Shown here: positions 3,388 through 42,417 of the stretch, piece after piece
Layout of the letters: the number at the start of each line of letters is the position of its first letter
Numbering within the stretch: the stretch's first letter is position 1
Source: a virus
Virus record (IMG/VR): IMGVR_UViG_3300027983_000018
Location: 1 to 59,757 of that record
Direction: 5' to 3' (one strand)
Length of the DNA stretch: 59,757 nt
Position numbers and translations under genes: made by a program
Notes under the pieces: generated by a model
The model's input: only the letters and a program-made list of their open reading frames with translations
Told to the model about the DNA's origin: nothing
Database searches by the model: none

Positions 3388-3975
3388 ATGAAAAAAGAAC
3401 TAAAGCAAAATTCATTACTTTCTCGGTTAAAATACCATAAGATAAACTTATCTGTGTGGTACGTTTTAGTTAAGTTGTACAACGAAGAACCTGTAAAAGA
3501 AGAGCTTCTGAAGAAGGTGAACCCTTCCCTTGCGGTAGATGGAAAGCTAACTCAAAAAGGAATCGATGTACTTAAAAGTATTGATGACTTGTTTGCAACA
3601 AAAAAGAAACTCAAGTCTGAACAACTTATGGGTGACGATTATCAAAATAAGATTGAAGAATACCTTGACTTGTTTCCAATAAAAAAGTTACCTAATGGTA
3701 AGTATGCTAGAGGAGATAAACGAAACGTGGAAGTTAATTTCAGATGGTTTTTTGAGAACTACAACTACAGCTGGGAAGTTATTCTTGAATCAACAAATAT
3801 GTATGTAAAGGAGTATGCACAAAAGAACTTCTTGTACATGCGAACTGCAAAGTATTTTGTTAGAAAAGATGACGGAACACGTAATGTAAATTCAGACTTA
3901 GCAGATTACTGCGACAGGTATGTAGATCACGGATGTTACGTAGAAGAAAAAACATTTAAAACAAAAGTTATTTAA
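3388..3975 (+). CDS. Conserved-looking replication-cluster protein, 195 aa, function unknown
   Basis: A basic N-terminus (M-K-K-E-L-K-Q) is followed by a predicted helical protein with an aromatic-rich segment (W-F-F-E-N-Y-N-Y-S-W-E near residues 120-130) and Y-M-R-T-A-K-Y-F around 155-162. It overlaps the ATG of the DnaB-type helicase by one base (TAATG). Direct coupling to the helicase suggests a helicase loader or replication-initiation partner, but no motif proves it. The ATG at 3388 is the first in frame. Confidence 0.65.
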   Translation: MKKELKQNSLLSRLKYHKINLSVWYVLVKLYNEEPVKEELLKKVNPSLAVDGKLTQKGIDVLKSIDDLFATKKKLKSEQLMGDDYQNKIEEYLDLFPIKKLPNGKYARGDKRNVEVNFRWFFENYNYSWEVILESTNMYVKEYAQKNFLYMRTAKYFVRKDDGTRNVNSDLADYCDRYVDHGCYVEEKTFKTKVI

Positions 3976-5009
3976 TGGATGTAGTAATCTCAAAACCAAA
4001 ATGGGTCAGTCATGCAATGCACTATAAAGATGCATTGAAGTACATGAAGGGCAAGCAGCAAGGAAATATAACAAGTTACAAGACTCCTTGGCCAAAGTTT
4101 AATGACGCAACCATGCAGGGTCTTGAGTTCAATACAATCACATTGATTGGAGGAAGACCTGCATCTGGAAAAACGCTACTGGTAGATCAAATTGTAAGAG
4201 AAGGATTTAAGTTGAACCCTGGAATGAATTTAAGAGTTCTCCAATTCCAATTGGAAATGTTTGGTAGAACATCTAAGCTTAGGGAATTTTCAGCAATAAC
4301 AAGTAAGACTTACAAGGAGCTGTGTTCTTCATCAGATGACTCGTCCGTTATAGATGATAAAACAATTGAGTTGTGTCATAAACACGCGATAGAAGCAGCC
4401 AAGTATCCAATTGATGTAGTAGATGATCCGGTATCTGTTGTTGAGTTTAAGAAGACAATAATTTCCTACATGGAAACACATGCTTCAAGCTTAACAAAAG
4501 TAGTTAAAGGACACCCTGTAAAAATAAAGCAATACAAAAAAACAGTAGTCACATTAGATCACTCTGTTTTAATTAAGAAAGATAAATCAGAATCAAGTAA
4601 GCAAGAAACTCTTGCGAACCTTGGTGAAGCTTGTACAGAATTAAAAAAGAAATACCCTATTGCATTCATACTTCTTACTCAGCTCAATAGAGAGACAGAT
4701 AGACCTGAGAGAAATGAAGATGGTAAGTATGGGAATTACATTTTAGAATCTGACATATATGGAGGTGACGGTTTGCTGCAACATGCAGACATAGTTATCG
4801 GGGTTAATCGTCCAGCAAAAAGATTTATTAAAACGTATGGTCCAGACAACTACATTATTGAAGATGAGAATACATTAGTTTTCCATTGGATAAAATCAAG
4901 GAATGGTGAAACGGGAATGAGTTTTTTCAAAGCAGAGTTCCATAAGATGTCTATTGCTGAAATGAATACACCTGGACAAAGTTCAAGTTTTAAACCAACA
5001 AGAAAGTAA
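3975..5009 (+). CDS. DnaB-type replicative DNA helicase (RecA-fold domain only), 344 aa
   Basis: Walker A G-G-R-P-A-S-G-K-T at residues 59-67 and Walker B V-V-T-L-D-H at 191-196 are followed by the DnaB-type H3 motif F-I-L-L-T-Q-L-N-R-E (231-240). An S-D-I-Y-G-G-D segment and a basic C-terminal part (W-I-K-S-R-N-G-E) complete the SF4 helicase pattern. Cellular DnaB is about 470 residues with an N-terminal helical domain. Here the ATPase begins by residue 50, so the primase-interacting N-terminal domain is absent or replaced. It would unwind the phage replication fork on the lagging strand. Neighbours encode the recombinase, SSB and primase. Confidence 0.9.
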   Translation: MDVVISKPKWVSHAMHYKDALKYMKGKQQGNITSYKTPWPKFNDATMQGLEFNTITLIGGRPASGKTLLVDQIVREGFKLNPGMNLRVLQFQLEMFGRTSKLREFSAITSKTYKELCSSSDDSSVIDDKTIELCHKHAIEAAKYPIDVVDDPVSVVEFKKTIISYMETHASSLTKVVKGHPVKIKQYKKTVVTLDHSVLIKKDKSESSKQETLANLGEACTELKKKYPIAFILLTQLNRETDRPERNEDGKYGNYILESDIYGGDGLLQHADIVIGVNRPAKRFIKTYGPDNYIIEDENTLVFHWIKSRNGETGMSFFKAEFHKMSIAEMNTPGQSSSFKPTRK

Positions 5010-14565: not shown

Positions 14566-16593
14566 ATGGTACTAGCAAAAGGATACATATATGATTACGA
14601 AACAGTTGTTAACTGCTTTGTTGCTTGTTTTGTGAATGTACAAAACTCTAACGACATTATTATTTTTGAAGTTAGTGATGAAAAAAATCAAATCAAAGAG
14701 TTCATTGATTTCTTAGAACAAGCAATAGAAAAAAAAACATTTCTTGTTTCTTACAATGGATTAAAGTTTGACAACCAAGTTTCCAGACACATCTTAGGAA
14801 AGAAAATTACGTTACTTCGTTCAACGAGCAAGGAAGTTTACGATTACATTTATAAAGGAGCTCAAGAAGTTATTAAAAGATCTAGGGATAGAGAGTTTCC
14901 AATGTATCATCCAAAAAACAATGAGTTTAGGGAATGTGATATTTTAGCAATCAACAACTACGACAACCCTGCTAAGATGAGTTCTCTTAAATGGTTGCAG
15001 TACAGTATGGATTGGCACAATGTAGAGGACATGGAAAAACCGTTTAATGAATTACATAACTCGCAAGACATCCTGTGCCTTAAAGCTTACTGCATCAACG
15101 ACTGCCTGTCAACAAAGAAATTGTTAATTAAGAATAAGTCTGAAATTTTATTGAGACAGAACTTAACCAAACATTTCAAAATTCCTTTACAAAATCACTC
15201 TGAACCAAAGCTAGCAAAAAGCATTTTCCTAAAACTTCTTGCAGAAAAAATGCAGATTTCCGAAAGCACTTTAAAGCAAATGAAAACGTACAGGAAAAAG
15301 ATAAAACTAAGTGAGGTAATTTTACCATACATTCGTTTTACAACTCCTGTATTGAAAGGAACATTATCTACATTTAAACGATTGGTGTTGGATGGAGAGA
15401 ATTTAAAAGGCTCTTTCAAAGAAGAAGTTACTTACCGAGGATTAACATTGTCTTTTGCATTAGGTGGCATACACGGAGCTAAAAAAGGCATCTATAAGTC
15501 ATGTAAAGATTTTATTATAAAGTCTTTTGACGTAACTTCATATTACCCAAATTTAGCCATAAGAAATAAATGGGCTCCAGCACATATTCCAAAAGAAGCT
15601 TTCTGTGAAATTTATGAAAGTTTCTTTGAAGACAGAAAGCTTTATCCTAAAAGCAATCCACTAAATTACGTTTACAAAATTTTATTAAACGCAACTTATG
15701 GGTTGTCAAATGAAGATAATTCTTTCTTAAAGGATTCTTTGTTTACCATGCAAATAACATGCAACGGACAGCTACTGTTAGTTATGTTGATGGAAGATAT
15801 TTGTGAAAACATTCCAGGGGCAAGACCTTTGATGATTAACACAGATGGTAGTGAGATAATTATACCTCGTGAGTATGAAGCAAAGTATCTTGAGATTTGT
15901 GAGAAGTGGGAGAAAATAACAAGCCTGAACCTTGAGTACGAAGATTACGAAAAGCTAATCATTGGAGACGTAAATAATTATATTGGTATTTACAAAGGAA
16001 AAGAAATCAAAGAAGAGGAAGCTCTTTCATTGATAAAGCAAACACCTAAGCCATTAATTAAAAAGACAAAGGACGGAAAGTTCAATCACTACAAAACAAA
16101 AGAAAAAGGTCGATTTGAAATTGACAAAGCTCTTCACAAAAACAAAAGCTACAGAGTAAACAGGATTGCCTTATACAATTACTTTGTACACAACAAGCAA
16201 CCAGAGATGACAATAAGTGAAAACAAAAACATTTTTGATTACTGTGCAGGAGTAAGAATGAAAGGTCAATGGAAGTTAAACGCTACTTGTGTAACAGATG
16301 GAAGCGTTATTGGAACCAAGCTACCAAAAACCCTAAGATACTACATTGCAAACAAAGGATGTAAGTTTATAAAAGTAAAAGAAATTTTTACTGAGGGAGA
16401 ATTAACTGAGGTTAAAAACATAAAACTCGAAGCACAAAACTGCTTAGAGCAAGAAGCAAATAGAATAAATCCAGACAAAAAATTTGAAGAGTACAACTTA
16501 AACTTGTCCTTCTATATTAAGAAAATCAGAAAAGAAATCGAAAGTCTTGATCCAAAACATTCACAAGCAGCAATGAATTTTTATGAAATCTAA
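14566..16593 (+). CDS. Family B DNA polymerase with 3'-5' exonuclease, 675 aa
   Basis: Exonuclease motifs: Y-D-Y-E-T (D10, E12), S-Y-N-G-L-K-F-D-N (62-70) and Y-C-I-N-D-C (175-180). Polymerase motif A is F-D-V-T-S-Y-Y-P-N (D322), motif B K-I-L-L-N-A-T-Y-G (371-379), and motif C I-N-T-D-G-S-E (424-430). The usual first Asp of Y-x-D-T-D is therefore Asn, while the second (D427) is kept. The length is near that of compact phage family B enzymes. No terminal-protein gene was recognised, and a TOPRIM primase is encoded nearby, so RNA-primed synthesis is likely. The 3' end overlaps the next gene by 11 bases. Confidence 0.9.
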   Translation: MVLAKGYIYDYETVVNCFVACFVNVQNSNDIIIFEVSDEKNQIKEFIDFLEQAIEKKTFLVSYNGLKFDNQVSRHILGKKITLLRSTSKEVYDYIYKGAQEVIKRSRDREFPMYHPKNNEFRECDILAINNYDNPAKMSSLKWLQYSMDWHNVEDMEKPFNELHNSQDILCLKAYCINDCLSTKKLLIKNKSEILLRQNLTKHFKIPLQNHSEPKLAKSIFLKLLAEKMQISESTLKQMKTYRKKIKLSEVILPYIRFTTPVLKGTLSTFKRLVLDGENLKGSFKEEVTYRGLTLSFALGGIHGAKKGIYKSCKDFIIKSFDVTSYYPNLAIRNKWAPAHIPKEAFCEIYESFFEDRKLYPKSNPLNYVYKILLNATYGLSNEDNSFLKDSLFTMQITCNGQLLLVMLMEDICENIPGARPLMINTDGSEIIIPREYEAKYLEICEKWEKITSLNLEYEDYEKLIIGDVNNYIGIYKGKEIKEEEALSLIKQTPKPLIKKTKDGKFNHYKTKEKGRFEIDKALHKNKSYRVNRIALYNYFVHNKQPEMTISENKNIFDYCAGVRMKGQWKLNATCVTDGSVIGTKLPKTLRYYIANKGCKFIKVKEIFTEGELTEVKNIKLEAQNCLEQEANRINPDKKFEEYNLNLSFYIKKIRKEIESLDPKHSQAAMNFYEI

Positions 16594-18081: not shown

Positions 18082-19368
18082 ATGAAAACAATTTTTGAAT
18101 CTAGAAAAACCGAAATAACATACACTGCTGGACAAACAGAAGCATTAACCAAAATCAGCAATTTTTTAAAAACAGATGATTCATTTTTCTTATTAGCAGG
18201 TTATTCAGGTTGCGGTAAAACGACAATCGCTGAAAACATTGCTAACTTTACAAATGCAAGTATTTTAGCACCAACCAATGCAGCATTAAACCGACTGAGA
18301 GAAAAGATAGATAATGAAAAATTAAGTTACGCTACAATCCATCGTGCATTATATGGAGGGATAGATACATCTAAAGTACAAAGAGGACTTTTACCAAGAA
18401 AAACATACATCATTGATGAAGCATCTATGATTGATGCATTCATCCTGAATGACTTAATCAAGCAAGCAATATTAAAGAGGAACAAATTAATAATTATAGG
18501 TGACAGTTTTCAATTAGAACCTGTTGGAAAAGACCCTTTCCTGTTTAAGTGGAATTTAATAAAGCCCGAAATATTTAAAAAAGAAAACTTTCATGAATTA
18601 AATGAAGTAAAAAGATACGACGGAGATTTACTTACAATTGCTACGAGTTTAAGAACAAATAATAAACCCGAAATAAAACTACCCGCTTCAGGTGATTTAA
18701 CAATCGTTAGTAAGTTTTCTAAACAATTGAGTAAAGACATAAAAGAAAATAGCTCTTATGTTGTAATAACATCAACAAATGCTACTCGCGTAGACTACAA
18801 CAAAAAGATAAGAGAGTATCGATACAAGTTAGATCCAGAAGAACTAAACTACATTCAAAAGAATGAAAAAATAGTTAGTGTTTCAAATTCTGTTTTTTAT
18901 TCAAACGGTGAAATTTTCACAGTAAGTGATCCAAGATTAGAGTATGAGTTTGAAATTACAAAGCTTGACAAAAACGAGGTTGAAAAAAAATACAAGGTTT
19001 TAATTTACGATTATGACAATGGAAAGAAATTGTTTTTTGTGCCTGATTTAATGGAGCCGTCTTTACATGGAGCAGAATTAGTTGAAGCATTTGAAAACAA
19101 CAAGTTTCAATTCCCTTACAAATTAAGAAATCTGTTGTTTGAAAAAACTTTCAAGTTCTTGAAATTCAACAGAGTTTATACAATCTGTACTTACGGATAT
19201 GCAATTTCATGCCACAAAGCTCAAGGTCAAGAATGGAACAACATATACATAGACGCGTCGTGGCTAATGCCTATATGGAATCACGCAAGATGGTTCTACA
19301 CAGCAATTACACGAGCTAAGCTAAAAGTAGAAATTAAAAAAACAGCATATCTTAAAATAATAGAATGA
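18082..19368 (+). CDS. Dda/RecD-like SF1B DNA helicase, 428 aa
   Basis: Walker A A-G-Y-S-G-C-G-K-T-T (39-48), motif Ia A-P-T-N-A-A (63-68), motif II I-I-D-E-A-S (110-115), motif III G-D-S-F-Q-L (140-145). Near the end is H-K-A-Q-G-Q-E-W (motif V) and Y-T-A-I-T-R-A-K (motif VI). The length matches T4 Dda (439 aa). It would translocate 5'-3', clear proteins from DNA and help start replication or recombination. The stop overlaps the next mini-ORF start (ATGA). The upstream gene is ended by a terminator 5 bases before this start. Confidence 0.9.
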   Translation: MKTIFESRKTEITYTAGQTEALTKISNFLKTDDSFFLLAGYSGCGKTTIAENIANFTNASILAPTNAALNRLREKIDNEKLSYATIHRALYGGIDTSKVQRGLLPRKTYIIDEASMIDAFILNDLIKQAILKRNKLIIIGDSFQLEPVGKDPFLFKWNLIKPEIFKKENFHELNEVKRYDGDLLTIATSLRTNNKPEIKLPASGDLTIVSKFSKQLSKDIKENSSYVVITSTNATRVDYNKKIREYRYKLDPEELNYIQKNEKIVSVSNSVFYSNGEIFTVSDPRLEYEFEITKLDKNEVEKKYKVLIYDYDNGKKLFFVPDLMEPSLHGAELVEAFENNKFQFPYKLRNLLFEKTFKFLKFNRVYTICTYGYAISCHKAQGQEWNNIYIDASWLMPIWNHARWFYTAITRAKLKVEIKKTAYLKIIE

Positions 19369-29553: not shown

Positions 29554-32500
29554 TTAACAATTGTTTTTATCTTTTATCATGTTTTGTTGACGGTCTAAAG
29601 GTAAATCATTAAAATAAGATTCAGACATAGTTCCCCCTAAACTTTTGTATTCTGCAAATAAATCAGCAGAAACAGGTTCGCTTGATTGAGAATTGGTTAA
29701 TTCAATACCTATAGATTTTAACACTTTTCGTCCATTCTCTGACTTAGAATATTTTGTATTTATGTCATCAGCAAATTTTTCTAAAACTTGTTTTTGTGTA
29801 GAAGCACCTTCCGTATAAATAGTAAATACACCGCCTTTAGTATTTACTTCAATAAACCAGTTAAGAGCTGCTACATTGCCTTCCGAATTATAATGCTCCT
29901 TAGTCAAATACAATTCTACATTAGGAAATTCAGGGATTGTTATTTTGTAACCGGTTTTTGTTTGGTTCTCTTTTATGTAATTATTAAATAAAGTATATGT
30001 AATTTTTGTAGTTCCTTGTTTAAGCGCAGATACATTAATCGTTCCGGTTGCTTCAGTAGAAACAGGTTCGCTTGATTGAGAATTGGTTTCAGAAAATTCA
30101 GAAACATTTTCAGATTTAATATCCTCTAACATTTCTTTGTACAACAAAGCTTGCCTATCTATTGATGTATCAGGTACATTAGCCCTGTTTTCCCCTCTTG
30201 CAAGTTGATCTTTAATTCTTTGTTTAGCTAAAGCAGGATTTAATTCAAGTAACTTATATTCTACTTTAGTGTTTGGTGACGCAGAATTTATAGCACTTAT
30301 AAAATCTCTTCTTCTATCTTTTTGTAGGTTAGTCGAATCTATAACAACAGATTTACCACTTTTTAAAGCGGCTATAGCTCTTTCTTTTACAGCTTCATAA
30401 ATCTCTTTATCTTTAGATTTATCATCCATATTACCTGTAAATTCTACTCTCATTTCATCAGGTGAAATAACGGTATATTCATCTTTAGATAAAGTTTTAA
30501 TAAATGTACTTTTCCCACTACCGCTTATACCTATTGGTAATAGTATTGTTGCTTCAGTAGAGACAGGATTACTTGATTGAGAATTGGTTGAATTTGCAGT
30601 CCTAACTTCAAACTCTTTTGGTAAAACAATGTTCTCAGGAAGATTTTTATTTTCTAATAAAGATTTCATTTCTTGTTCAGTAAATCCAGCCATGTTAGTA
30701 CCAAATTTTGTAACAAGAAATTTTAATCCTGGATTATTATTAGCTTCTAAGATTAAAGCGTTAATAGATTGTTCTATTCTTGATGGAGGAACGCTTCGGG
30801 TTTTTCCTATTTTTAAAAATCCATTACTTATAGATGCAGCTTTTGTTACAATTCCAAAAGATTTCCCTTCTGTTCCTTGCATAAGTTTGTCTACAATTCC
30901 ATATTCAGACCATTTACCTTTAGTTCCTACAGGTAATGCTTTATACTCAGGAGTTACTGTTCCTCGTTGAGCTAATCCTGCTGTTCCACCTCCGTGTCCA
31001 CCTACTGTGTTTGCACCAAATACAAATACTTCGTTAGATTTTAAAGAAGTTATGTTTTCAGGTGTATATTCTCTTTCAGCACTACTTTGTTTAGTAGTAG
31101 TTGTTTGATTTGACTTGTTGTTTTCAGAATACTGAGGTTGTTTTTTACCAAAGGCTTCATATAAATCCAAATACCATTTTCCAGGCTTATAGTCAGCATA
31201 ATTTACAGTTTTCGTTTGATCGTATAATTTTTTACCATCTCTATCGTATTCATTGTATTGCATCCTAGCTGTTACAAAATTTCCTGTATTTTTAGGAGTA
31301 CTAAATTCAATGTAAATACCATGGTTACCTACCATAAGTCTTTCAAAAGTAGGTTCTTTTATTTTTAAAACTTGTTCGTTTTCTACTTTTAAAGTTGAAT
31401 TATCAGATTGAAGTTCTACTTTACCTAATTCCGGAAACGTATTTTGTAATTCATTTATGTAAACCGTTCTGATTTTATTATTAATGATTCCGATGTCTTC
31501 AGCGGATTTAGAATTAGCTAAATCTCTTATAAATGCTTGATACGTTTTAAGTCCTACATATCTCCAAAATTCACTAAACCAATAATAATTTGACTTGTTG
31601 TCTTTTTCGCTTGTCCCTTGGTATGTAGTTTTACCATTTGATGATTGTGCATTTCTTATGTATTGAGCAAGTACACTGTTAGTGTTTTTCATAAGGTACT
31701 GCTCTAAAAAAGAATCAGAAATAGAAATCCCTATGTCTATACCGCTTTTACTTAAAACGCTTGATGTTCCATCTTGTACATGTAAAACATTAATTAAATT
31801 TAAACGAAGCTTGTCATCTCCTTCAAGTTTTTTATTAATTTTATCAGAAACTATGTCGTAACCGTTAGATGCAATATCGGACTCATCCATGCCTTCAAAT
31901 AAGTTCATGTCATTAAGATACTTTTTTAATTCAATAAAAGGTCCGTTAGACAATCTAATGCCTTTCTTTGGTGAATAAAGAGGAGAAGTTTTTCCGTCGT
32001 AAGATTTAACTAACTCATAGTATTTTCCAATTTGAGCATAACGTATTATTTTCTTGTAACCTTCCTTAACTAAATAATCAATAGCTAATTTATCTATTCC
32101 ATTAGCTGTTCCAACATTAAAAGAAACTCCTTCTTTTATTGCTTTATCGATAACGGGAGCATACTTATTTGTAAAATCGGCAACTAATATTTGCTGGTAA
32201 GAAGTTTCAGTCTCTCCTCCTCTGGAAGATTTAAAGTTTCCTGCTCCAAAAATCCATACTGCATCTGAAGAAACAAATTGTTCATCAAAAGCAGAGCTGT
32301 TAATTTCCTTAATCTTACGAATGTAATTACGGGTAGAACTTTTATTTCCACTAAGGTATTCTGGTGCAGCTTTAGAAGGGAATGCGATTGCTTTATTGCT
32401 ATTGTTAGCCATAGTTTCGTCTTTAACCCAATTGTTTTTTTTCTTGTTAATAGCATCAGCAATAGACAACCCATCTTTTATTTTGAATAAAGGAACTGAT

Positions 32501-35500
32501 TGTAAAACAGGAGACGTTGAAGAATTGTCAACACCAAAGTATTTAAGAAGCAGTGCATTAAATGTTTTTTCATTTATTCCTGGACCGCTTGGTGGAATTA
32601 TTTTATCATCTTGAAATGCTATTTTTTTACCTAGCCATGACTTAAAAAGTTCCTCCAATGAATCAATCGTCATACCAGGCATTTCGTCAAAAAACACACC
32701 TGATTCAACTATAACAAAAAACTCATCTTCTTTAGTAGCATCGTTTAAGTTTTCATAAATGAAAATGTCACCTTCAGTCATTACTGTTTTTTTAATTGTA
32801 GAAGTTGTTACAAAAGCAAGAGGTACGTTTAACGTGTAGTCAGAACCTCTTGATCGTTGCTTATATTCCATTGGAGTAAGGTCATTAAACAGGTTAAAAT
32901 ACTGATCTAACAATCTACCATCTGCCTTATTAATTTTAATGCTTTCTGTTTCCATTTGTTTTTGAATATCAGCAAAAACTTTTAGTATTCTTTCTGAAGC
33001 AAATGTTTTTTGAATAACAGTTTCCATTCTGCTTTTAGTGTCCAACTTTCCTAAATAGTATTTTGATTTAGTATTTGAACCCGCCTGCATTGTTGAAATG
33101 TGAGAGAAATTATCTAATGAAAAAAACGAGTTAATGTCAGGATTACTGTTATTGGACAAGTCAATTAAATTTTCTAAGTACACAGCCATTATTCGTGGAT
33201 CAGTCGTGTCCTGTAAATAAAGATTACTCTTTTTAGAGTTGTCGTTTTTCCTTTCAGTATCTGAACGCAAATCTTCAACAAGAGAATAATGACTTAACTC
33301 GTCAGCATACCTTTCTTTAAGAGCTTTAAATCTTGCAGAAGTACCAATGTTTGAATCAAACATTACAGAAGGAGACTGAGTGTTGTAAGCAGCAACTAAC
33401 TTTGGTATAGCATCAATGTGGTATCTATCAAAGAACCAATGTTTTTCTCGTATTTCTTTTTCTGATACTCCAACAAACGATTCTTTAACATTTCTTAATT
33501 CAATCAAGTATTTAACATACTCTGTCATTTGACCATCTTTGTAAAGATTGTTGATAGTTCTGTCTAGAAACATATCATGCCTTAATTTATTTACATTGTA
33601 AGTTACTTCTCCATTTACTTCGTTTACTTTAATTGCTTCCTTTTGAGTTTTGTTTTCTGTTAGCTTGTAAACAACAGGAGAACCGTTAGCTAACTGAGTA
33701 GAATAACTTACTGGACTGTACATAGCATTTTGATACAAGAACAACGAGAAGTCATTTTTAAATGCGTTAATCATCACGTTTTTAAATACACCTTTTTTAA
33801 CCTTTAGAGACAACGCTTTTTTATTTAAAATTTCGTGGTTTCTTATTTTGAAAAAACGAGTAAATAAATTAATGATAAAGTCTTTGTCTTTAAACAATCC
33901 AATTGGTGTACTTTCAAAACCTTTCTCCCAAGACAAAGGTATAGCAGAAGGCTTACTAAACAGACTTTCTAATTGTTTTTTGTTTTGTTCAGCATCTGTA
34001 ATGTTTGCAATTTTCTTAGTGTCAAACTTATTTGCTTGCTGAAATTCAGTAAGATCTTTTGTTATTAATTCTATGTTTAAGTACTGAGCAAGTAATCTTA
34101 AATCTTCTGAATTAGGAGCTTCTCCAACACGATCCAATAATTGTTTTTCTGTATAAACTTCAGTTTCATTCAAGTTGTTTATTGAACTAAAACTAAGATT
34201 ATCGTATCCAGATGATTTTATTAAATCGGAGTATCTTCTAGCAAGTTCGTCTTGAGCTAATTGATTTACTTTAAAAGAAGTTTCAGAATCAATTATCGGA
34301 TTAGTTCCAGGGTCATTGGAAATATTCGAATAAACACCAAGCATTTCTTTTTTGATTTGATTGTACTCAATAACTAAAGGATTAGAAGATAAGTAAATCG
34401 CATCGCTTACAGGAACACCAGCCATAACCATAAACAACAAGTTAGGAGTATTTTCCTTGTTTCCTTGAACATTAAAAATCCAAGCTTTTTTAGCAACATC
34501 CAAGTAACCATTTATAAGTTGAGAAATCGTATCTGCAATTAACGCAGGTGCTTTATCACTTGAGTATCTTTTACCAATTGTAATTCTTTTATTGTCTCCT
34601 TCTCCTACAGAGTTGTGAGATAGCTTCAATGTCATTGACTTAAACGTGTGAAATATATCCAATGATTTATTTTTCTTATCAGCCTTATTGAATTTTGTTA
34701 AGTCATCAATTGAAGGTGGATTTAAGTTTCCTCCAAACGCAGTAAATGTAGCATAGAAAGTTGAAGTAACCGCAGCAATACCTAAAGCTTCCATTGCTAC
34801 AGAATTTTCTTGATGTTTTTGTAAGTTGTACAAGTAATCAAAAATAGAAGTACCGGAAATTACGCTGTTACTTGTTTGAGTATCCTCAAATTTTTCGTAC
34901 TTGTTGTAATCCCGTTTAACCTTTGCTTCCATGTCATTTGCAATTGGAAGAACTCGGTCTGTTGTATTTGGTGTAACTAAATCAACAAAGTTTTCTGGAG
35001 ATGAAATCTTAGAAATCATTGTTGCTAAAATATCATTCTCCACTCCTTTCGTAGTGTATCCAAGAGAAGCTCGTTCTAACTCAGCTCCTTTGTTTTCTTT
35101 TTGTAATTTAATCTGTAGTCTTACCGCTTTTTTTGCTTCTTTGTTTTTAATGAAAAATTCTTTAAGTTCACTTTTCATAGAACCCGTTGCTTCAAAAATC
35201 AAATCCTCCAACTTTCGATTGTTCTCCTCAAGTTGAGTGTATAAAGAATTTATTTGATTTTCAAGTATTTCTACAATTTCGTGAACCCTTGTGTTGTTTA
35301 ATTTCTGACCTCCAAAAAATCCAGTAACAATTACTGATCCTTTTGTTTTTTTGAAATCGGATATTTGATCAAAAACTTCTCTGGAAGCATTGTACAAAAA
35401 CGAATATTCTTCTGAAGAAAAAGCATCTTTTTGCTCATCATATTTTTTTGCAGACTCGTCATTTAACCTCTCGATTTCTTCATACAACGGTTTCAGAACA

Positions 35501-38500
35501 GTCAGCTCAAATTCCTCAACTTTTTGTTTTGCGTCAGCTGTTCCATTAGTGTCGTAACCAACATACTTAATCATCTCAGGTTTACCATTTACAAAACCAA
35601 AGTTAGGGTACATGAAAAACAACTTGTCAATATCGTAATCTGCTCCAGACTTAGCCACAATTTCTGATGGCAAAATTACTTTAGTTCCAGCGTACTTAGG
35701 TAAAAACTCCGCAACTATTACAGCATCAAGAGCATTCGGCCCTTGTGTTGGAATACGAACACCAGCGAATGTAATAAAGCTTCGGTTAGTTTTATTCCAC
35801 TCAGGGTTTTTAATTGATTCATTCAACCTTTTTAAAGATTCATCATAATCCAATTCTTTTTTAATTTTTCCGTCTACTTCAATTTTAGTATAAGCTGCAA
35901 TCTTTTCCCCACCTGTATGATAATCTAAATGAAACAGTTTTTCAAAGTCTCCTTGAAGTGCAATTTTAACTTCCATAAAAGAAGGAGACCCGTCTAATGT
36001 TTTTCGATAAAACTTTAATTCGTTTGTTGCATCAAACTCTAAGTCATTATCCTCATACATTGTACCAGAAGCCTGAACTAATGCTTCACCATTAACTTTA
36101 AGTTTACGAAGTTTGTTGTCAACCAGAGTAACTAAAATGGATTCTAATTTCTCTGCATTTAATGAATAAGAAAGATCTCTTAGATTTCCTGTTTCGCTAT
36201 TAACAATTGCTTCAATTTCGTGAGGCAAGAAATCACTTTTTGCTAATTCTTTTTGTAAAAACTTAATTATGTTTTCTTGGTTTCCTTCGTATTCTCCAGT
36301 AACATTATTAAACTGCATACCTAAATCGGCAAGGATGTCTTGTTTAAAATGCTCTCTAAGCTGAGTCATTGAACTGTTGTAATCTTTGTACCAACTATAG
36401 TTTTTAGATTCCTTAACTTTTTGTTTTTCATCTAAGCTATCCCAATCAAGAGTGCCTTTATAATCAGTAGGTACTCCGTTGTCAGCAATACCGTGAAGAA
36501 TCATTTTCCTCATTTGTGTAGCCAAGGTAACTTTACCTTTAAATCCTTCTGCTAAGTAAACTTGATTTTTTAAATGCTTTACTGAGATAATGTTTTTAAC
36601 AAATTCCAAACCAGTATTTACCTTTCTGTTTTCGTCATAAAATACATCTGATTTTTTAACCAACTTGTCTGCTTCTTTATCATAGGCAACTTCGCTTAAC
36701 GTAGAAAGTTTAGAACCAGATTGCATTGTAACATAATCAAGACCTTGTTCCATCATGCTATTATGCAAGCTTTCTAATTTCTTGTTTTTAATTAATGCAG
36801 GAATAAGTGGCATTAATGAATACTTGTGGAACGCTGTAAAAGCAGATCCAGGTTGTAAATTTTTATCTGTTGTTACAGGTCCAAAATACTGAAACTTTTT
36901 TATTGGAAAAGTTGTCTTGTATTTATTTGAAGAAATTTTTTCGCCCTTCAACATTTTTTGATACAAGTCTTCCTGACCTTCCGACCATTCATCGCAAGAT
37001 ATGTTCAACAATCTGTATGAGTCAAAAGAGATCCAGCCTTGACCATCCGCTTCCTCCATGTTTTTATAGGTGGACGCAACTTCAGTTCCCATCAGTTCCT
37101 CCATCTCATCAATGTACTTAGCTGAATGAATCGATTCTGAAATAACTCCTGTATTCAACATACCATTGTATGCGTAATCCAAATCAATTCCTTTTGATTT
37201 ATTGTGAGCTTTTGCAAAAGCTCTGTTGTTAAACAAACCTTGGTTATTAACAAACTTTAAAAAAGCATCGTCAGATACAAAAATCTTACCTGTAGAGATC
37301 ATACCAGCATTACGCTTGTGGTAATCTTCTTTCCCAATGTTAAACAATACAGGATCTCCTAAAAACAAAGAAGAGTAGTTCATGTTTTGCAAGAAGTTAT
37401 TTGTGATATGACTTCTGAAAAGACGCTCCATTGTTTCATTTCGGTTGACTTTTTTATTTTCATCTTTGACTTCAAACTTACTCATGATGTTGTCAGGCAT
37501 TTCAACATCTTGCTTAATCTTTAAAAGTTCAGCTGATCTTTTACCAAAATAAGAAACTAAATCTTTTTCTATTTTTTTCTCCAATGCTCTACTTACTGCA
37601 GAATTAATACTGAAACTTTGTAGTTCATTTCCTTTTGCTAAATAGTCAGAGTAAGATTTTAAAAGAGCCTTTTTGTTTTCGTCGCTTATTATGTTAGAAA
37701 AAGAAGACCATTCTTGACCACGTTCTAAAAAGTTAAAATCATAAACATGTTTCTCATCTGGATTATCTTTTATGTATTGGGCTACTTGTTTAAGTCTTAA
37801 AATTCTAATTATTTCCGCCTCGATGTGACCTGAAAAGTCTCCGTATAACATAACTCCGTCATAGTCTTCAGAAAACACCTTGTCTATGGTTTCAATGTCA
37901 AACGCAAGCTTCCCTGTTTTACCACCAATTAAACTTCCAGACTCTGTAGTCTGACTTGCATAAACTGCAAGAGAAGAAGACTTAGCTTCAGACCTTGGTA
38001 TTTCTTGCATACCGTAATCTGTCAATAAAACATCTGTAATGAATTTAGTTTTTTCATCTGATCCAATTGATGAAACTCCTTTATCCACAGTTGTAGTTTG
38101 AGGATTCTCTCCGTTCTTTGTAATTTCCGTGTGAACAACTTTAGAACCAGAAATGTTTTCAATGTAAATCTTAATACCTGTATTTCTTACACCGTGAGTT
38201 GAAGAGGTTACAGGAGAATCTAAATTAAACATTGAAACAATCCACTTGTTTGCAGCTATCTGAGGATTCGATCTAAAATCAAACTTTTCCATTCCTGGAA
38301 TAGAAAGTAATTCGTCATAAGATTGAGCCGCATTAAGTGCTTGTATTTCAATTGTTAAAGAAGAGTTCAAAGACTTCTCACTTGCCATTTCTCCATAAGC
38401 CGTTCTACTCATAAAACTTGAGTTGTCGTTTGAATACTTTTGATGAAGCTTAGCTACAGTAGAAAGAAATCCAATTTTACCTTGAAACTTTACAGGAGGA

Positions 38501-41500
38501 GAGCCTACAGAATAATCTTTAAATAATTGGTCTAACGAGCGATACTTTGATTCTGGCTGATCAATCGATCTTTGTTCTAAGAACTCAGAAAAATAAGAAA
38601 AACTACTAGCCTTTAACTCAAGAGAAGGGTCGCCATACCAGAAACTATCTTTAACAACGGGATCATTTACTAGATCTATACCAACAGCTCTTAGAAAAGC
38701 AACAGGGTCAGCTTCACTTTTTGTGCTAGTTGGGTTTTTAGAGTAAAGTTTCTTTTGGTCAGGACTTAAAGAATTGTACTCTAATATTGTTACATAACCA
38801 ACACCATTAGTTAAATCATGTACCTTTAAGTTTGGTTGAAATTCTAAAATGAATTTTTGCAAATCAAAGTAAGCAGCTCCTGGTGTAACTACTCCATCTC
38901 TTTCAATCATATCACTTGAAGAATAAGGACCTGTTTCCATTTTTCCAATAAACGAATCTTTCCAATCATTTATAACAAAAGCATAACTTTTATTAATATC
39001 TCCAGAGTAAGATTGAGTTGTTGCAGAAGACTTGTCAAAAGCACCTCCTTGGTCAATAGTTGTAGTCTTTTCAATAACCTGTGCTCTTAACATAACATCC
39101 GCTTTGTTAAAAGTTTGCCAAAAAGAAATCCACTGTTTAACTTCACTAACAGTAGCATTTGACAAAGGGTCGCCTAATTTATACAACATTTGATTAAGCT
39201 CTTTGTCTGTTTTTCCAGCTTCAACTAATCGAGCGTACATTACTTGTCGGTCATTTGTATTAGCAAGAAGCTTTGCAACTTTAGCAAACATTGTTTTGAA
39301 AGGAACTAATTTCTGTACGTTTAACGCGTTCATGTTAGATACACCCTTACCGTTTGAACCATAAGAACGAACACTGCTTAATAGCATTTTAGTATGCTCA
39401 TCGGCTAAATCTAGTATAGCTGACTCATTCCCAGAACGATCAAAAATCAAACGAACATTGTCTCCTGAATCAGATTCAGCAAGCTGTTCGTCAATTGAAT
39501 CTTCCGCAGTATCTGTAACTTGAAGTCCACTATAAGAATTAAAAAACAAAGACGAAATGTCTTGATACGTATCTTGAGTAGTGTACGTATTGTCGTTGTT
39601 AAAATCTCCAAAATTGTCAATTATTTTTGTTACAGTTTCAAAAATAAATTTGCTTTTTAAATCAGTTTTGTCATTTAAAAATTTACTTTCAGCAATAACT
39701 TTTTGTTGAACAAAAGAATTTTTCATAAAAAGAAAAGCATTCTTTAATAATACAGGGTGTGTCTTAAAACGAAAAGTACCGTATCCATTAAAAATACTAA
39801 GATTGTCTTTCTTAAATTGTTCAATTTCTTTTTCCAGTGCTGCATATTGAGCCGCCTGTTTAATTGGATCCATACCTGCCAACGTAATAACTCTCATAAA
39901 TTGAGCTCTATCTGGAATTTGTCCTTCCGGAACAATAGCTACAGAATTAACACCAGAGTCAATGTAATTAGAAAGAAAAGACTGCATAGATTCCATAGCT
40001 AAATGAACTTCCTCTAAAGAAAATTCAAGTTGCGTTGTCCCATCTTCATTGATTTTTTTAATTTCAGATGAGTTATACATTGCGCTTAAATTCCTGTTGT
40101 CAAAAGAAGACGATTTTAGGTCTCCTTTATAAAGAGCAGAAAATAAAGCATTGGTCATACCGTTAGTTCTGTTTAAAGCTATTGCCTCTGCAAAAGTGCT
40201 GTTACCAAAGAAAGACTTTAATAAGTTTAACATCTTCTCAAAAAATTCTTTTACTTTTCCTTTTTGAGAAGTAACTCCTTTAACTGCAAATTTTTTAAAT
40301 TCTTCAGCTAAATATTCTTCAAGTTGTAATTCTGTTGCCAAAGAAAAAGAAACACTTGTTTCTTTACCGTAAACAGTAACTGTGAAATAACCAGGCTTCG
40401 TTCTTAAAGTGTCATACATTTCTTTTTGTTGTTCACGACTTAAAACCCCCATAGAAAAAGCATGGAACGCTTCGTGATAAATGTCTGTCTTATCGGAACC
40501 GTGATAAAGAGTAATCATATTATCAACAAACTCAGCAACAAACTGAGGACCTAATGCATGAATTTCATCTGTTAAATGAAGTCTTATTAGTTTTGATAGG
40601 GGGTGATTTTCAAACCAACTTTCTGCATCCTTCTCTTGTTTTTCAGTAACACGAGCTTGATTTTTCTTAGATGTTGACTGAAAAAAAGTATCGGCATTAT
40701 TTGATCCTAGTATAGTTTCTTCTTTAACTTCTTCTTCTGTTTTTTCTGTAATTTTTTCAAAAGAACTTGGTTTAAAAGATAAGTAAGGAGGAACCGATTT
40801 AAGCTCTTTGTTTTTCATACGAATACGAACATTACCGTTTGCAATAACATGTTCTTTAAACTTGCTCTTTTTCATCTCAAAAACTCCATCTTTAAAAGAT
40901 TGGAGAACTGTAACATTTGAATCTAAAGTCGTTGTTTCTTCTTGGTTAAAATTGATTAACGAAAATTGTTTTCTGTAATAAACACCATCCTTAACATATA
41001 CTTGGTTGTTTTCTGTTGCGTTTTGTTCTGAACCAATATCAGTAATATCTAAGTAATTTAAGGCTTTGTCATATTGGATAGAAACTCCCTCGTAAACATA
41101 GTTGCGAAATGCTGTTGTTATTTCAGCTTTATTTGTGTCATTTATTTCAAAACTTGAACCTGCAATTGTAATAGACTTTTCGTTTTTTGAAAAAATAACT
41201 CCTGTTAAATTCGCTCTAACAATAGTTTTAAAAATATTTTTTCTACTTGCTTTCTTCCAAAAAACATCTCCTGTTTTAACTTTGATTTCTCCTTCAAAAA
41301 ATATAAGAGCCAGCAACGCTTCAAATTGATCTTGCGTAATTTTATTTAACGCATTTTCAGAAATATTAACAGGTGTGCTACCACCCTCTGGTATTATGTT
41401 TACTCTTTTTGATTTTTTAGTCATAGAGATTGTTAACTCTAATACATCTAAGTTTTTAATTTCTGAAATAGGAACTACTTCATTTATGTTCATTGACAAT

Positions 41501-42417
41501 ATCTCAGCATTTTTACTCTTAGTTGCATCTATTTCCAAGAAGTAATCTTCACCCTTTTCTAATGCAGAATTGATGTTTAACAACAGTGAAGTGTATTCAG
41601 CAAGAGCTTTTCTAGCTTGCTCTCTTGCTTCAGCAACAGGAATGTTTTTTTGTTTAGCAATTATTCCCGGCAATATGCCTAAAGCATAATTGTTTTCAGA
41701 CTCTGAGTTTTTTATTTTCAAAACGGGTGTACGCATTGTACCGTCTTCATCTTCAAATTTTAAAACATTTCCGTTTAAATCCGTTGGGATTAAAACAATA
41801 TCGTTGTCGTTGATTTGGTAAGGAGTAACATAAGCCTCGTTTTCTTTAACATCGGAATAACGTACCGCTTTTAGTTTATTGTTTCCAGAAAAATCTTTAA
41901 GTATTAACTCAATTGCTTTTGAAACAAAACGACCTTTGCTACTTAAATTCTCTGTTCCTTGAGCAGTAGAGGCAAGCTCCAAGCTTTGATTGTACGTTTT
42001 ATTAAAAATAAAAGATAACGGAGTGAAGTCATTAACAACAGTGGTGATCGTATTGCTGTTTCCAATTAGACTAGAAATCTCTGAAATTACATCCGATAAG
42101 TTTTTGTCAGTTACTGAACCAGCAATAACTTTACCTCTAAGGATTCCGATTTCTTTAAGAAGATTTAGATTCGGCTTAGTTACGGGAGAGTTCATGTGAG
42201 AAAAAATCATCTCTGGAGCAATCAACATGTGTTGAAGAATAAGCTCTTTGTTTTTATTCTCAGTAAACTCAGGAGAAGAAAGGGACAACACAGCTGAATT
42301 AAATAGCTGTGTCATCATGTCTTTTGAAGTTATTTCTGTATTATAAAATGCGGGGATTGTTTTTTTAAAATACGCACTAAATAATTTTATTGAATTTGGA
42401 GTAATACAAATGTTCAT
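29554..42417 (-). CDS. Giant virion RNA polymerase (crAss type) with zincin motif and C-terminal accessory domains, 4287 aa
   Basis: The catalytic double-psi beta-barrel motif is S-G-A-D-Y-D-I-D-K-L with D2260, D2262 and D2264. It is preceded by R-I-P-T-Q-G-P and V-I-L-P-S-E, and the other barrel signature A-L-V-Q-A-S-G lies about 150 residues earlier. This is the pattern of the single-chain YonO/phi14:2 gp66-type polymerase, injected with DNA to transcribe early genes. Residues 648-652 are H-E-A-F-H with L-E-E-Y-L-A-E-E about 55 residues on (zincin). The C-terminal part adds a SLOG-like segment from about 3387 (V-W-I-F-G-A-G-N), a macro-like segment from about 3797 (V-F-V-F-G-A-N-T-V-G-G-H-G), and a P-loop kinase at 3963 (G-I-S-G-S-G-K-S-T). 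It is nearly twice the length I recall for gp66 (about 2180). Confidence 0.85.
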   Translation of the reverse strand: MNICITPNSIKLFSAYFKKTIPAFYNTEITSKDMMTQLFNSAVLSLSSPEFTENKNKELILQHMLIAPEMIFSHMNSPVTKPNLNLLKEIGILRGKVIAGSVTDKNLSDVISEISSLIGNSNTITTVVNDFTPLSFIFNKTYNQSLELASTAQGTENLSSKGRFVSKAIELILKDFSGNNKLKAVRYSDVKENEAYVTPYQINDNDIVLIPTDLNGNVLKFEDEDGTMRTPVLKIKNSESENNYALGILPGIIAKQKNIPVAEAREQARKALAEYTSLLLNINSALEKGEDYFLEIDATKSKNAEILSMNINEVVPISEIKNLDVLELTISMTKKSKRVNIIPEGGSTPVNISENALNKITQDQFEALLALIFFEGEIKVKTGDVFWKKASRKNIFKTIVRANLTGVIFSKNEKSITIAGSSFEINDTNKAEITTAFRNYVYEGVSIQYDKALNYLDITDIGSEQNATENNQVYVKDGVYYRKQFSLINFNQEETTTLDSNVTVLQSFKDGVFEMKKSKFKEHVIANGNVRIRMKNKELKSVPPYLSFKPSSFEKITEKTEEEVKEETILGSNNADTFFQSTSKKNQARVTEKQEKDAESWFENHPLSKLIRLHLTDEIHALGPQFVAEFVDNMITLYHGSDKTDIYHEAFHAFSMGVLSREQQKEMYDTLRTKPGYFTVTVYGKETSVSFSLATELQLEEYLAEEFKKFAVKGVTSQKGKVKEFFEKMLNLLKSFFGNSTFAEAIALNRTNGMTNALFSALYKGDLKSSSFDNRNLSAMYNSSEIKKINEDGTTQLEFSLEEVHLAMESMQSFLSNYIDSGVNSVAIVPEGQIPDRAQFMRVITLAGMDPIKQAAQYAALEKEIEQFKKDNLSIFNGYGTFRFKTHPVLLKNAFLFMKNSFVQQKVIAESKFLNDKTDLKSKFIFETVTKIIDNFGDFNNDNTYTTQDTYQDISSLFFNSYSGLQVTDTAEDSIDEQLAESDSGDNVRLIFDRSGNESAILDLADEHTKMLLSSVRSYGSNGKGVSNMNALNVQKLVPFKTMFAKVAKLLANTNDRQVMYARLVEAGKTDKELNQMLYKLGDPLSNATVSEVKQWISFWQTFNKADVMLRAQVIEKTTTIDQGGAFDKSSATTQSYSGDINKSYAFVINDWKDSFIGKMETGPYSSSDMIERDGVVTPGAAYFDLQKFILEFQPNLKVHDLTNGVGYVTILEYNSLSPDQKKLYSKNPTSTKSEADPVAFLRAVGIDLVNDPVVKDSFWYGDPSLELKASSFSYFSEFLEQRSIDQPESKYRSLDQLFKDYSVGSPPVKFQGKIGFLSTVAKLHQKYSNDNSSFMSRTAYGEMASEKSLNSSLTIEIQALNAAQSYDELLSIPGMEKFDFRSNPQIAANKWIVSMFNLDSPVTSSTHGVRNTGIKIYIENISGSKVVHTEITKNGENPQTTTVDKGVSSIGSDEKTKFITDVLLTDYGMQEIPRSEAKSSSLAVYASQTTESGSLIGGKTGKLAFDIETIDKVFSEDYDGVMLYGDFSGHIEAEIIRILRLKQVAQYIKDNPDEKHVYDFNFLERGQEWSSFSNIISDENKKALLKSYSDYLAKGNELQSFSINSAVSRALEKKIEKDLVSYFGKRSAELLKIKQDVEMPDNIMSKFEVKDENKKVNRNETMERLFRSHITNNFLQNMNYSSLFLGDPVLFNIGKEDYHKRNAGMISTGKIFVSDDAFLKFVNNQGLFNNRAFAKAHNKSKGIDLDYAYNGMLNTGVISESIHSAKYIDEMEELMGTEVASTYKNMEEADGQGWISFDSYRLLNISCDEWSEGQEDLYQKMLKGEKISSNKYKTTFPIKKFQYFGPVTTDKNLQPGSAFTAFHKYSLMPLIPALIKNKKLESLHNSMMEQGLDYVTMQSGSKLSTLSEVAYDKEADKLVKKSDVFYDENRKVNTGLEFVKNIISVKHLKNQVYLAEGFKGKVTLATQMRKMILHGIADNGVPTDYKGTLDWDSLDEKQKVKESKNYSWYKDYNSSMTQLREHFKQDILADLGMQFNNVTGEYEGNQENIIKFLQKELAKSDFLPHEIEAIVNSETGNLRDLSYSLNAEKLESILVTLVDNKLRKLKVNGEALVQASGTMYEDNDLEFDATNELKFYRKTLDGSPSFMEVKIALQGDFEKLFHLDYHTGGEKIAAYTKIEVDGKIKKELDYDESLKRLNESIKNPEWNKTNRSFITFAGVRIPTQGPNALDAVIVAEFLPKYAGTKVILPSEIVAKSGADYDIDKLFFMYPNFGFVNGKPEMIKYVGYDTNGTADAKQKVEEFELTVLKPLYEEIERLNDESAKKYDEQKDAFSSEEYSFLYNASREVFDQISDFKKTKGSVIVTGFFGGQKLNNTRVHEIVEILENQINSLYTQLEENNRKLEDLIFEATGSMKSELKEFFIKNKEAKKAVRLQIKLQKENKGAELERASLGYTTKGVENDILATMISKISSPENFVDLVTPNTTDRVLPIANDMEAKVKRDYNKYEKFEDTQTSNSVISGTSIFDYLYNLQKHQENSVAMEALGIAAVTSTFYATFTAFGGNLNPPSIDDLTKFNKADKKNKSLDIFHTFKSMTLKLSHNSVGEGDNKRITIGKRYSSDKAPALIADTISQLINGYLDVAKKAWIFNVQGNKENTPNLLFMVMAGVPVSDAIYLSSNPLVIEYNQIKKEMLGVYSNISNDPGTNPIIDSETSFKVNQLAQDELARRYSDLIKSSGYDNLSFSSINNLNETEVYTEKQLLDRVGEAPNSEDLRLLAQYLNIELITKDLTEFQQANKFDTKKIANITDAEQNKKQLESLFSKPSAIPLSWEKGFESTPIGLFKDKDFIINLFTRFFKIRNHEILNKKALSLKVKKGVFKNVMINAFKNDFSLFLYQNAMYSPVSYSTQLANGSPVVYKLTENKTQKEAIKVNEVNGEVTYNVNKLRHDMFLDRTINNLYKDGQMTEYVKYLIELRNVKESFVGVSEKEIREKHWFFDRYHIDAIPKLVAAYNTQSPSVMFDSNIGTSARFKALKERYADELSHYSLVEDLRSDTERKNDNSKKSNLYLQDTTDPRIMAVYLENLIDLSNNSNPDINSFFSLDNFSHISTMQAGSNTKSKYYLGKLDTKSRMETVIQKTFASERILKVFADIQKQMETESIKINKADGRLLDQYFNLFNDLTPMEYKQRSRGSDYTLNVPLAFVTTSTIKKTVMTEGDIFIYENLNDATKEDEFFVIVESGVFFDEMPGMTIDSLEELFKSWLGKKIAFQDDKIIPPSGPGINEKTFNALLLKYFGVDNSSTSPVLQSVPLFKIKDGLSIADAINKKKNNWVKDETMANNSNKAIAFPSKAAPEYLSGNKSSTRNYIRKIKEINSSAFDEQFVSSDAVWIFGAGNFKSSRGGETETSYQQILVADFTNKYAPVIDKAIKEGVSFNVGTANGIDKLAIDYLVKEGYKKIIRYAQIGKYYELVKSYDGKTSPLYSPKKGIRLSNGPFIELKKYLNDMNLFEGMDESDIASNGYDIVSDKINKKLEGDDKLRLNLINVLHVQDGTSSVLSKSGIDIGISISDSFLEQYLMKNTNSVLAQYIRNAQSSNGKTTYQGTSEKDNKSNYYWFSEFWRYVGLKTYQAFIRDLANSKSAEDIGIINNKIRTVYINELQNTFPELGKVELQSDNSTLKVENEQVLKIKEPTFERLMVGNHGIYIEFSTPKNTGNFVTARMQYNEYDRDGKKLYDQTKTVNYADYKPGKWYLDLYEAFGKKQPQYSENNKSNQTTTTKQSSAEREYTPENITSLKSNEVFVFGANTVGGHGGGTAGLAQRGTVTPEYKALPVGTKGKWSEYGIVDKLMQGTEGKSFGIVTKAASISNGFLKIGKTRSVPPSRIEQSINALILEANNNPGLKFLVTKFGTNMAGFTEQEMKSLLENKNLPENIVLPKEFEVRTANSTNSQSSNPVSTEATILLPIGISGSGKSTFIKTLSKDEYTVISPDEMRVEFTGNMDDKSKDKEIYEAVKERAIAALKSGKSVVIDSTNLQKDRRRDFISAINSASPNTKVEYKLLELNPALAKQRIKDQLARGENRANVPDTSIDRQALLYKEMLEDIKSENVSEFSETNSQSSEPVSTEATGTINVSALKQGTTKITYTLFNNYIKENQTKTGYKITIPEFPNVELYLTKEHYNSEGNVAALNWFIEVNTKGGVFTIYTEGASTQKQVLEKFADDINTKYSKSENGRKVLKSIGIELTNSQSSEPVSADLFAEYKSLGGTMSESYFNDLPLDRQQNMIKDKNNC
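29668..29698 (-). repeat. RNAP linker repeat, copy 3
   Basis: Encodes the linker N-S-Q-S-S-E-P-V-S before the last 35 residues of the polymerase protein. The 31 bases are identical to the copy at 30058-30088. The plus-strand core is CTTGATTGAGAATTGGTT. Confidence 0.85.
30058..30088 (-). repeat. RNAP linker repeat, copy 2
   Basis: Encodes N-S-Q-S-S-E-P-V-S between the P-loop kinase domain and the following small domain. Identical over 31 bases to copy 3, which lies 390 bases (130 codons) away. The match to copy 1 extends further through GTTGCTTCAGTAGA on the plus strand. Confidence 0.85.
30559..30589 (-). repeat. RNAP linker repeat, copy 1
   Basis: Encodes N-S-Q-S-S-N-P-V-S between the macro-like and kinase-like domains. 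It differs from copy 2 by about four bases and lies 501 bases (167 codons) from it. Confidence 0.8.

Follow-up and report, generated by a model that had tools for sequence, protein, structure and literature searches.

No viruses of the human gut are more abundant than crAss-like phages, and to our knowledge little is known about how these phages deal with host defences on entering the cell.

The virion RNA polymerases (vRNAPs) of these phages are virion cargo, ejected partly unfolded together with the DNA, and they transcribe the early genes (PMC10172136, PMC10136315). Polyvalent proteins, which include a fusion of an N4-type vRNAP with a zincin metallopeptidase, have been described from phages and conjugative elements (Iyer et al. 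2017, PMC5512222). In the viral NAD+-ADP-ribose network (Iyer et al. 2022, PMC9503650), SLOG, macro and NADAR proteins were proposed to counter ADP-ribose-type signals and predicted to do so early in infection, some versions being packaged; these proteins are typically standalone, occur mainly in large myoviruses, and crAss polymerases go unmentioned there. NADARs, including gp30.3 of phage T4, take ADP-ribose off guanine in DNA (PMC11125620). DarG antitoxins reverse DNA ADP-ribosylation through a macro or NADAR domain, and phage ICP1 counters this defence (PMC11481870).

The window analysed here is the whole 59,757-nt stretch of the virus record IMGVR_UViG_3300027983_000018. It contains a single unbroken reading frame of 4287 codons (29554 to 42417, minus strand), which bears all the domains described below. 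Its core was found by tblastn and alignment to be homologous to Crassvirales RNA polymerases, including Cellulophaga phage phi14:2 gp66, crAss001 gp50 and the polymerase of cr108_1. A catalytic GADYDIDK (DxDxD) motif, in alignment with that of gp66, gp50 and further Crassvirales polymerases, lies at residue 2258 (35623 to 35646, minus strand), and this motif together with the homology identifies the core, at the sequence level, as a crAss-type DNA-dependent RNA polymerase. The gene is flanked by two further giant minus-strand ORFs of 2279 and 2074 aa. Other giant cargo proteins likewise flank gp66 and gp50, with gp66 lying between gp67 and gp65 of phi14:2 in the same giant-ORF neighbourhood. 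By analogy with the MS annotation of phi14:2 and with crAss001 (PMC10172136), the window vRNAP would be packaged in the virion and injected; that this polymerase class behaves so, as the initial annotation assumed, has been demonstrated in other crAss phages. The opposite, plus strand carries genes for a Family A-type DNA polymerase (14566 to 16593) and a Dda-like helicase (18082 to 19368), and no tRNA genes were found in the window.

The N-terminal part of the protein carries a zincin-like HEAFH motif (residue 648; 40462 to 40476, minus strand), which precedes the catalytic motif by about 1600 aa. HExxH occurs at the corresponding site in most crAss-like vRNAPs with an intact N-terminus. It is absent from gp66 and gp50, which differ further from the window protein in their size (2180 and 2412 aa) and in that no appended domain was found in them. 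A Pfam scan of the window vRNAP returned no peptidase match. We consider the motif a candidate self-processing protease that might cut the polypeptide.

The initial annotation had marked three nucleotide-binding segments in the C-terminal part of the protein, and all the motifs that it named lie at the residues it gave. The most C-terminal of the three is a polynucleotide-kinase (PNK)-type P-loop domain (30115 to 30564, minus strand), with Walker A GISGSGKST at residue 3963, SPDEMR at 3985 and VVIDSTN, whose DSTN begins at 4027. This segment matched Pfam AAA_33 (E 1.3e-18, 68 bits, cut-off 27), PHROG 505 (E 1.8e-15), the PHROG 'polynucleotide kinase' (E 7.6e-15) and NCBIfam TIGR04075 bacter_Pnkp (E 2.3e-11), far beyond chance, and its PDB matches included bacterial Pnkp (a chain named Metallophosphoesterase) and Pnkp1 kinases. 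The Walker A motif, the downstream Asp/Arg motif (SPDEMR) and the family-level profile match expected of a polynucleotide kinase are thus all present. Polynucleotide kinases are the best specific matches of the segment, and the kinase assignment from these profiles is firm.

Next to the kinase lies the segment that had been read as macro-like (30592 to 31071, minus strand), with VFVFGANTVGGHG at residue 3797 and TKFGTNMAGF at 3903. It matched NCBIfam A1S_2505_Nterm (NF049995; E 1.5e-17, 63.8 bits, curated cut-off 45) and PHROG 2072 (E 1e-17), again far beyond chance, and these profiles firmly place it in the A1S_2505 phage family. The macro fold itself received no confirmation from structure search against the PDB, where the AlphaFold2 model (pLDDT 79, pTM 0.76) had several macrodomains among its matches at E 0.15 or worse. 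In a viral structure library, a phage 'Appr-1-p processing protein' followed the family's own members (E 0.014, probability 0.93). Pfam Macro (PF01661) matched 1 of 60 family members (E 0.052), and a PDB profile search with the alignment gave no usable match. From these models, a macro fold is hinted at. A search for A1S_2505 relatives, independent of the core-based sampling described below, brought up about 30 further giant ORFs of vRNAP type with a homologue. Among annotated crAss phages, the domain is part of the polymerase ORF, or of the corresponding ORF, in cr50_1, cr112_1 (near the N-terminus), cr116_1 and Kolpuevirus 'frurule'. The cr50_1 protein (L009, 2836 to 17160, YP_010110216.1), annotated as 'DNA helicase', is a vRNAP whose C-terminal part holds A1S_2505 and, in place of the PNK, an SF1 helicase.

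The third segment (about residues 3375 to 3490; 31948 to 32295, minus strand) had been called SLOG-like. VWIFGAGN at residue 3387 and GTANGIDKLA at 3436 provide the GxG strand loop and the GGxxGxDxxA-type motif, and homologues occur in at least 14 other crAss vRNAPs (L010, L011, L012, L014, L015, L029, L033, L171, L176, L179-L182 and L185) and as a standalone 142-aa protein of a jumbo phage. No curated family matched the window segment, a search of the window with Pfam YAcAr (PF10686) was also blank, and a Pfam scan of the SLOG-like family matched no SLOG model. We compared profiles with hhalign, which gave 97.3% between the crAss SLOG profile and 'ISGHRD' proteins of Lak and other jumbo phages, 42.8% between the latter and phage YspA-type SLOG, and 42.5% for the crAss profile directly against YspA; the YspA figures come from a comparison cleaned of shared sequences, an initial 97% having had common sequences on both sides. 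The GxxxGxDxxA motif was in register in every one of these comparisons. The AlphaFold2 model, of mediocre quality (pLDDT 74), had no SLOG among the PDB matches listed, and a PDB profile search with the alignment gave no usable match. The segment is conserved in a clade of vRNAPs, and by the transitive profile chain it likely belongs to the SLOG superfamily. Against the cpYpsA domains of other vRNAPs, the best local hhalign match fell on the GGxxGxD motif and was not significant, so cpYpsA and window-type SLOG are counted separately. In the unassigned stretch between the SLOG and macro-like domains (31078 to 31935, minus strand), phmmer and blastp of the tails found no relatives of residues 3612 to 3754 in the tail set.

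The standalone SLOG relative lies on a 305-kb jumbo phage contig (L186, 5515 to 10414), together with a NADAR, a YspA-type SLOG and a gene that by inspection is probably nicotinate phosphoribosyltransferase-like. This cluster is likely an NAD+-related island, and the company that the SLOG relative keeps there favours an ADP-ribose-type role.

A fourth C-terminal domain, the unassigned domain X (29683 to 30075, minus strand), had been overlooked; it is conserved in the vRNAP of L014, its single relative, at 23% identity. Also missed were three copies of an in-frame 42-nt direct repeat (family D1, minus strand) in the linkers before the PNK (copy 1, 30548 to 30589, 90%), between the PNK and X (copy 2, the reference, 30047 to 30088) and after X (copy 3, 29657 to 29698, 86%). 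Copies 1 and 2 are spaced by 501 nt (167 codons), and copies 2 and 3 by 390 nt (130 codons). Since these spacings are whole codons, recombination between two copies would remove or double a domain and leave the reading frame intact. The idea that linker repeats are a general swap mechanism was dropped, because exact repeats of at least 8 residues occur only in the window and in none of the other tails.

Searches for loci with the whole vRNAP or the C-terminus alone retrieved almost nothing, and relatives were recovered with an alignment of the catalytic core. The resulting sample comprised 80 loci, gathered with this core alignment only and ordered by similarity to the window. Many of the sampled vRNAPs stop about 1000 aa past DxDxD without extra domains, and others run on to about 2380 aa. 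Scans of the tails detected NADAR, cpYpsA SLOG, AlkB-like 2OG oxygenase, SF1 Dda-like helicase, DUF7831, gp30.3 and PNK. With the profiles built in this analysis, at least one NAD+/ADP-ribose-type domain was present in 27 of the 80 vRNAPs, a fraction (34%) that describes a sample ranked by likeness to the window and is not an order-wide rate. Our own profile undercounted AlkB, finding 2, versus 7 in 40 tails by Pfam. In about 100 relatives, the regions on either side of the core hold changing sets of NADAR, SLOG, macro-like, AlkB-like, PNK and SF1-helicase domains, located before the zincin motif or behind the core, and the same families turn up in an adjacent ORF as well. SLOG, macro, NADAR and DUF7831 occur together in L171/L184 (one contig), NADAR, macro and cpYpsA in L099, NADAR, macro and helicase in L173, and macro and NADAR in L038. 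By these comparisons the vRNAP C-terminus varies among crAss polymerases and is not the invariant, catalytically empty part that the initial annotation had named as the counter-case to its proposal. In cr108_1 (L006, 16880 to 17184, NC_055878.1), the polymerase ORF ends with ...IVAKAGSD at its catalytic motif, and the next ORF opens about 290 bp further on; an intron or other insert may lie in the active site.

Three pairs of near-identical phages each differ by one block within the vRNAP gene. In the first pair (L017 and L022), the flanks share 98.1% nucleotide identity across 14.9 kb to one side and 96.0% across 3.3 kb to the other, and between them a 971-bp AlkB block of L017 is exchanged for a 936-bp cpYpsA and NADAR block in L022, in frame and just upstream of the zincin-like motif. 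In the second pair (L014 and L181; flanks 93.6% and 93.1%), the C-terminal block behind the SLOG differs, and in the third (L045 and L047) a cpYpsA block was gained or lost. As these are metagenome contigs, an assembly error is possible in a pair, though the block edges are in frame. The sequences show in-frame exchange of cassettes among phages that are otherwise almost the same. No description of such exchange on crAss polymerases was found in the literature searched, in which subscription journals were mostly outside coverage.

The polymerase tree, a FastTree with several long branches, gave minimum changes of 10 for the 10 carriers of NADAR, 4 for the 4 of PNK and 14 for the 23 of macro. 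On the same tree, the window-type SLOG appeared mostly vertical, being kept by nearly all members of the window's own 13-row clade. The window PNK shares 74, 67 and 65% amino-acid identity with its counterparts in L003, L041 and L095, versus 33, 36 and 23% for the respective polymerase bodies. Against L003, nucleotide identity of the PNK reached 80% over 426 bp, and the nucleotide similarity ends at the domain edges. The placement of the PNK also varies: it lies at the C-terminus in the window and in L041 and at the N-terminus in L095, and L003 has it in the following ORF. In L003 (8052 to 9890), a 396-aa ORF and an ORF that by inspection is a GIY-YIG-like endonuclease adjoin the PNK-bearing ORF, and the PNK of L095 lies inside sequence resembling this 396-aa ORF. 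The PNK cassette may have moved with the help of this GIY-YIG-like endonuclease.

The window polypeptide holds several disparate enzymatic domains (RNAP core, SLOG-like, A1S_2505 and PNK), as polyvalent proteins do. Like them, it is a giant polypeptide, thought to be injected, that joins an entry-acting polymerase, a zincin-like motif and disparate effector enzymes. In contrast to the N4-type version, its polymerase is the unrelated two-barrel enzyme of crAss phages, and the survey in PMC5512222 makes no mention of crAss phages. Its kind also differs from the proteins of that survey in having mainly SLOG, macro-like, NADAR, PNK, AlkB and helicase cassettes, with direct evidence of recent swaps. 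The same families recur in the NAD+-ADP-ribose network proteins, and they are often adjacent in crAss vRNAPs (L099, L171, L173, L038); the combinations in L171, L099 and L173 resemble the phage SLOG/macro/NADAR fusions of PMC9503650.

We therefore favour, with moderate confidence, the reading that this is a polyvalent vRNAP: an early polymerase of the crAss type that has a zincin-like motif upstream and tails that carry exchangeable counter-defence or nucleic-acid-repair cassettes, injected as one polypeptide. Relative to the known polyvalent proteins, a crAss-polymerase version with exchangeable cassettes is what our best reading would add. The polypeptide would be packaged and injected as for other crAss polymerases, and the domains of its flexible tail would refold in the host and work ahead of any phage gene expression. 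The macro-like, SLOG and NADAR domains might remove or sense host NAD+/ADP-ribose-derived signals, or act on nucleic-acid ADP-ribosylation, while the PNK might mend attacked DNA or RNA ends, the kinase readying broken ends. The turnover of cassettes would then reflect selection by shifting host defences. NADAR, AlkB and helicases in the same regions of relatives are consistent with an early counter-defence or repair role. As to the targets, the combination of AlkB, NADAR, macro, PNK and helicase cassettes among relatives would fit modified nucleic acid, and SLOG would fit soluble signals. If true, a cassette-swapping injected polymerase would be a hotspot of early counter-defence factors that can be read directly from metagenomes, and it would open to testing the old idea that packaged SLOG/macro/NADAR enzymes are active before phage genes are expressed. 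Tail cassettes would also account for some of the variation in crAss polymerase size and for certain misleading annotations, such as a vRNAP called 'DNA helicase'.

A more specific proposal, which we put forward tentatively and regard as rather unlikely, is that the vRNAP serves as a delivery chassis for transcription-coupled protection and that the polymerase gene is an anti-defence hotspot through in-frame cassette exchange. Damage-reversing enzymes would here be tethered to the first polymerase that moves along the incoming genome, with macro-like and NADAR domains acting against base ADP-ribosylation, AlkB against alkylation, the PNK against broken ends and the helicase against a blocked template.

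The initial proposal is supported as regards a pre-packaged module of nucleotide-handling domains, and the NADAR, AlkB and helicase domains of relatives would fit its anti-defence part, but its RNA-repair part fared worse. Repair of RNA or tRNA ends would have the PNK heal cuts by a host anticodon nuclease or similar RNase and the macro-like domain clear ADP-ribose by-products, so that translation continues. The PNK does keep Walker A and a DxxR-like motif, other crAss phages encode standalone PNK and RNA ligase genes (crAss001 Gp61, a separate gene versus the fused PNK of the window; the RNA ligase of cr116_1), and macro domains can process an RNA-repair by-product (PMC9503650). However, PF09414, PF09511 and RtcB were unmatched in the window and four other PNK carriers (fragments, with the PF09511 control silent), no fused phosphatase or cyclic-phosphate enzyme was found, and AlkB, NADAR and helicase cassettes are not RNA-end-repair enzymes. 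RNA repair as the only role was demoted, as the other cassettes do not fit it, and we consider it improbable. Still less probable is that the P-loop domain is another kind of kinase, zeta-toxin-like or small-molecule, in a module acting on nucleotides or sugars and not on nucleic-acid ends: AAA_33 spans several kinase types and a relative also matches Zeta_toxin (PF06414, E 1.3e-4), but the best specific matches are PHROG 505, TIGR04075 and the Pnkp and Pnkp1 kinases of the PDB. Least probable of all is that the tails are folded, enzyme-derived ballast for encapsidation or ejection and enzymatically unused, for although coliphage N4 vRNAP needs its C-terminal 1,400 aa for encapsidation (PMC5512222) and crAss tails are the most variable part of the vRNAP, many ending about 1000 aa after DxDID without added domains, the tails are dispensable in many relatives, belong to a narrow set of nucleotide-handling enzyme families with motifs kept, and draw on the same families before and after the core and even in an adjoining ORF.

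Two of the domain types were also observed elsewhere. In Vibrio phage ICP1 (L194), the C-terminal end of the accessory helicase helB (QVW04421.1) is a YspA-type SLOG, and the gene adjoins one formerly called GP145.1. In Bacteroides phage SJC03 (L093, 8950 to 9777), one 276-aa frame (QIG64850.1) joins an A1S_2505 macro-like domain to a YspA-type SLOG match (E 1.3e-19); this phage is cultured, and QIG64850.1 would be an easy protein to test.
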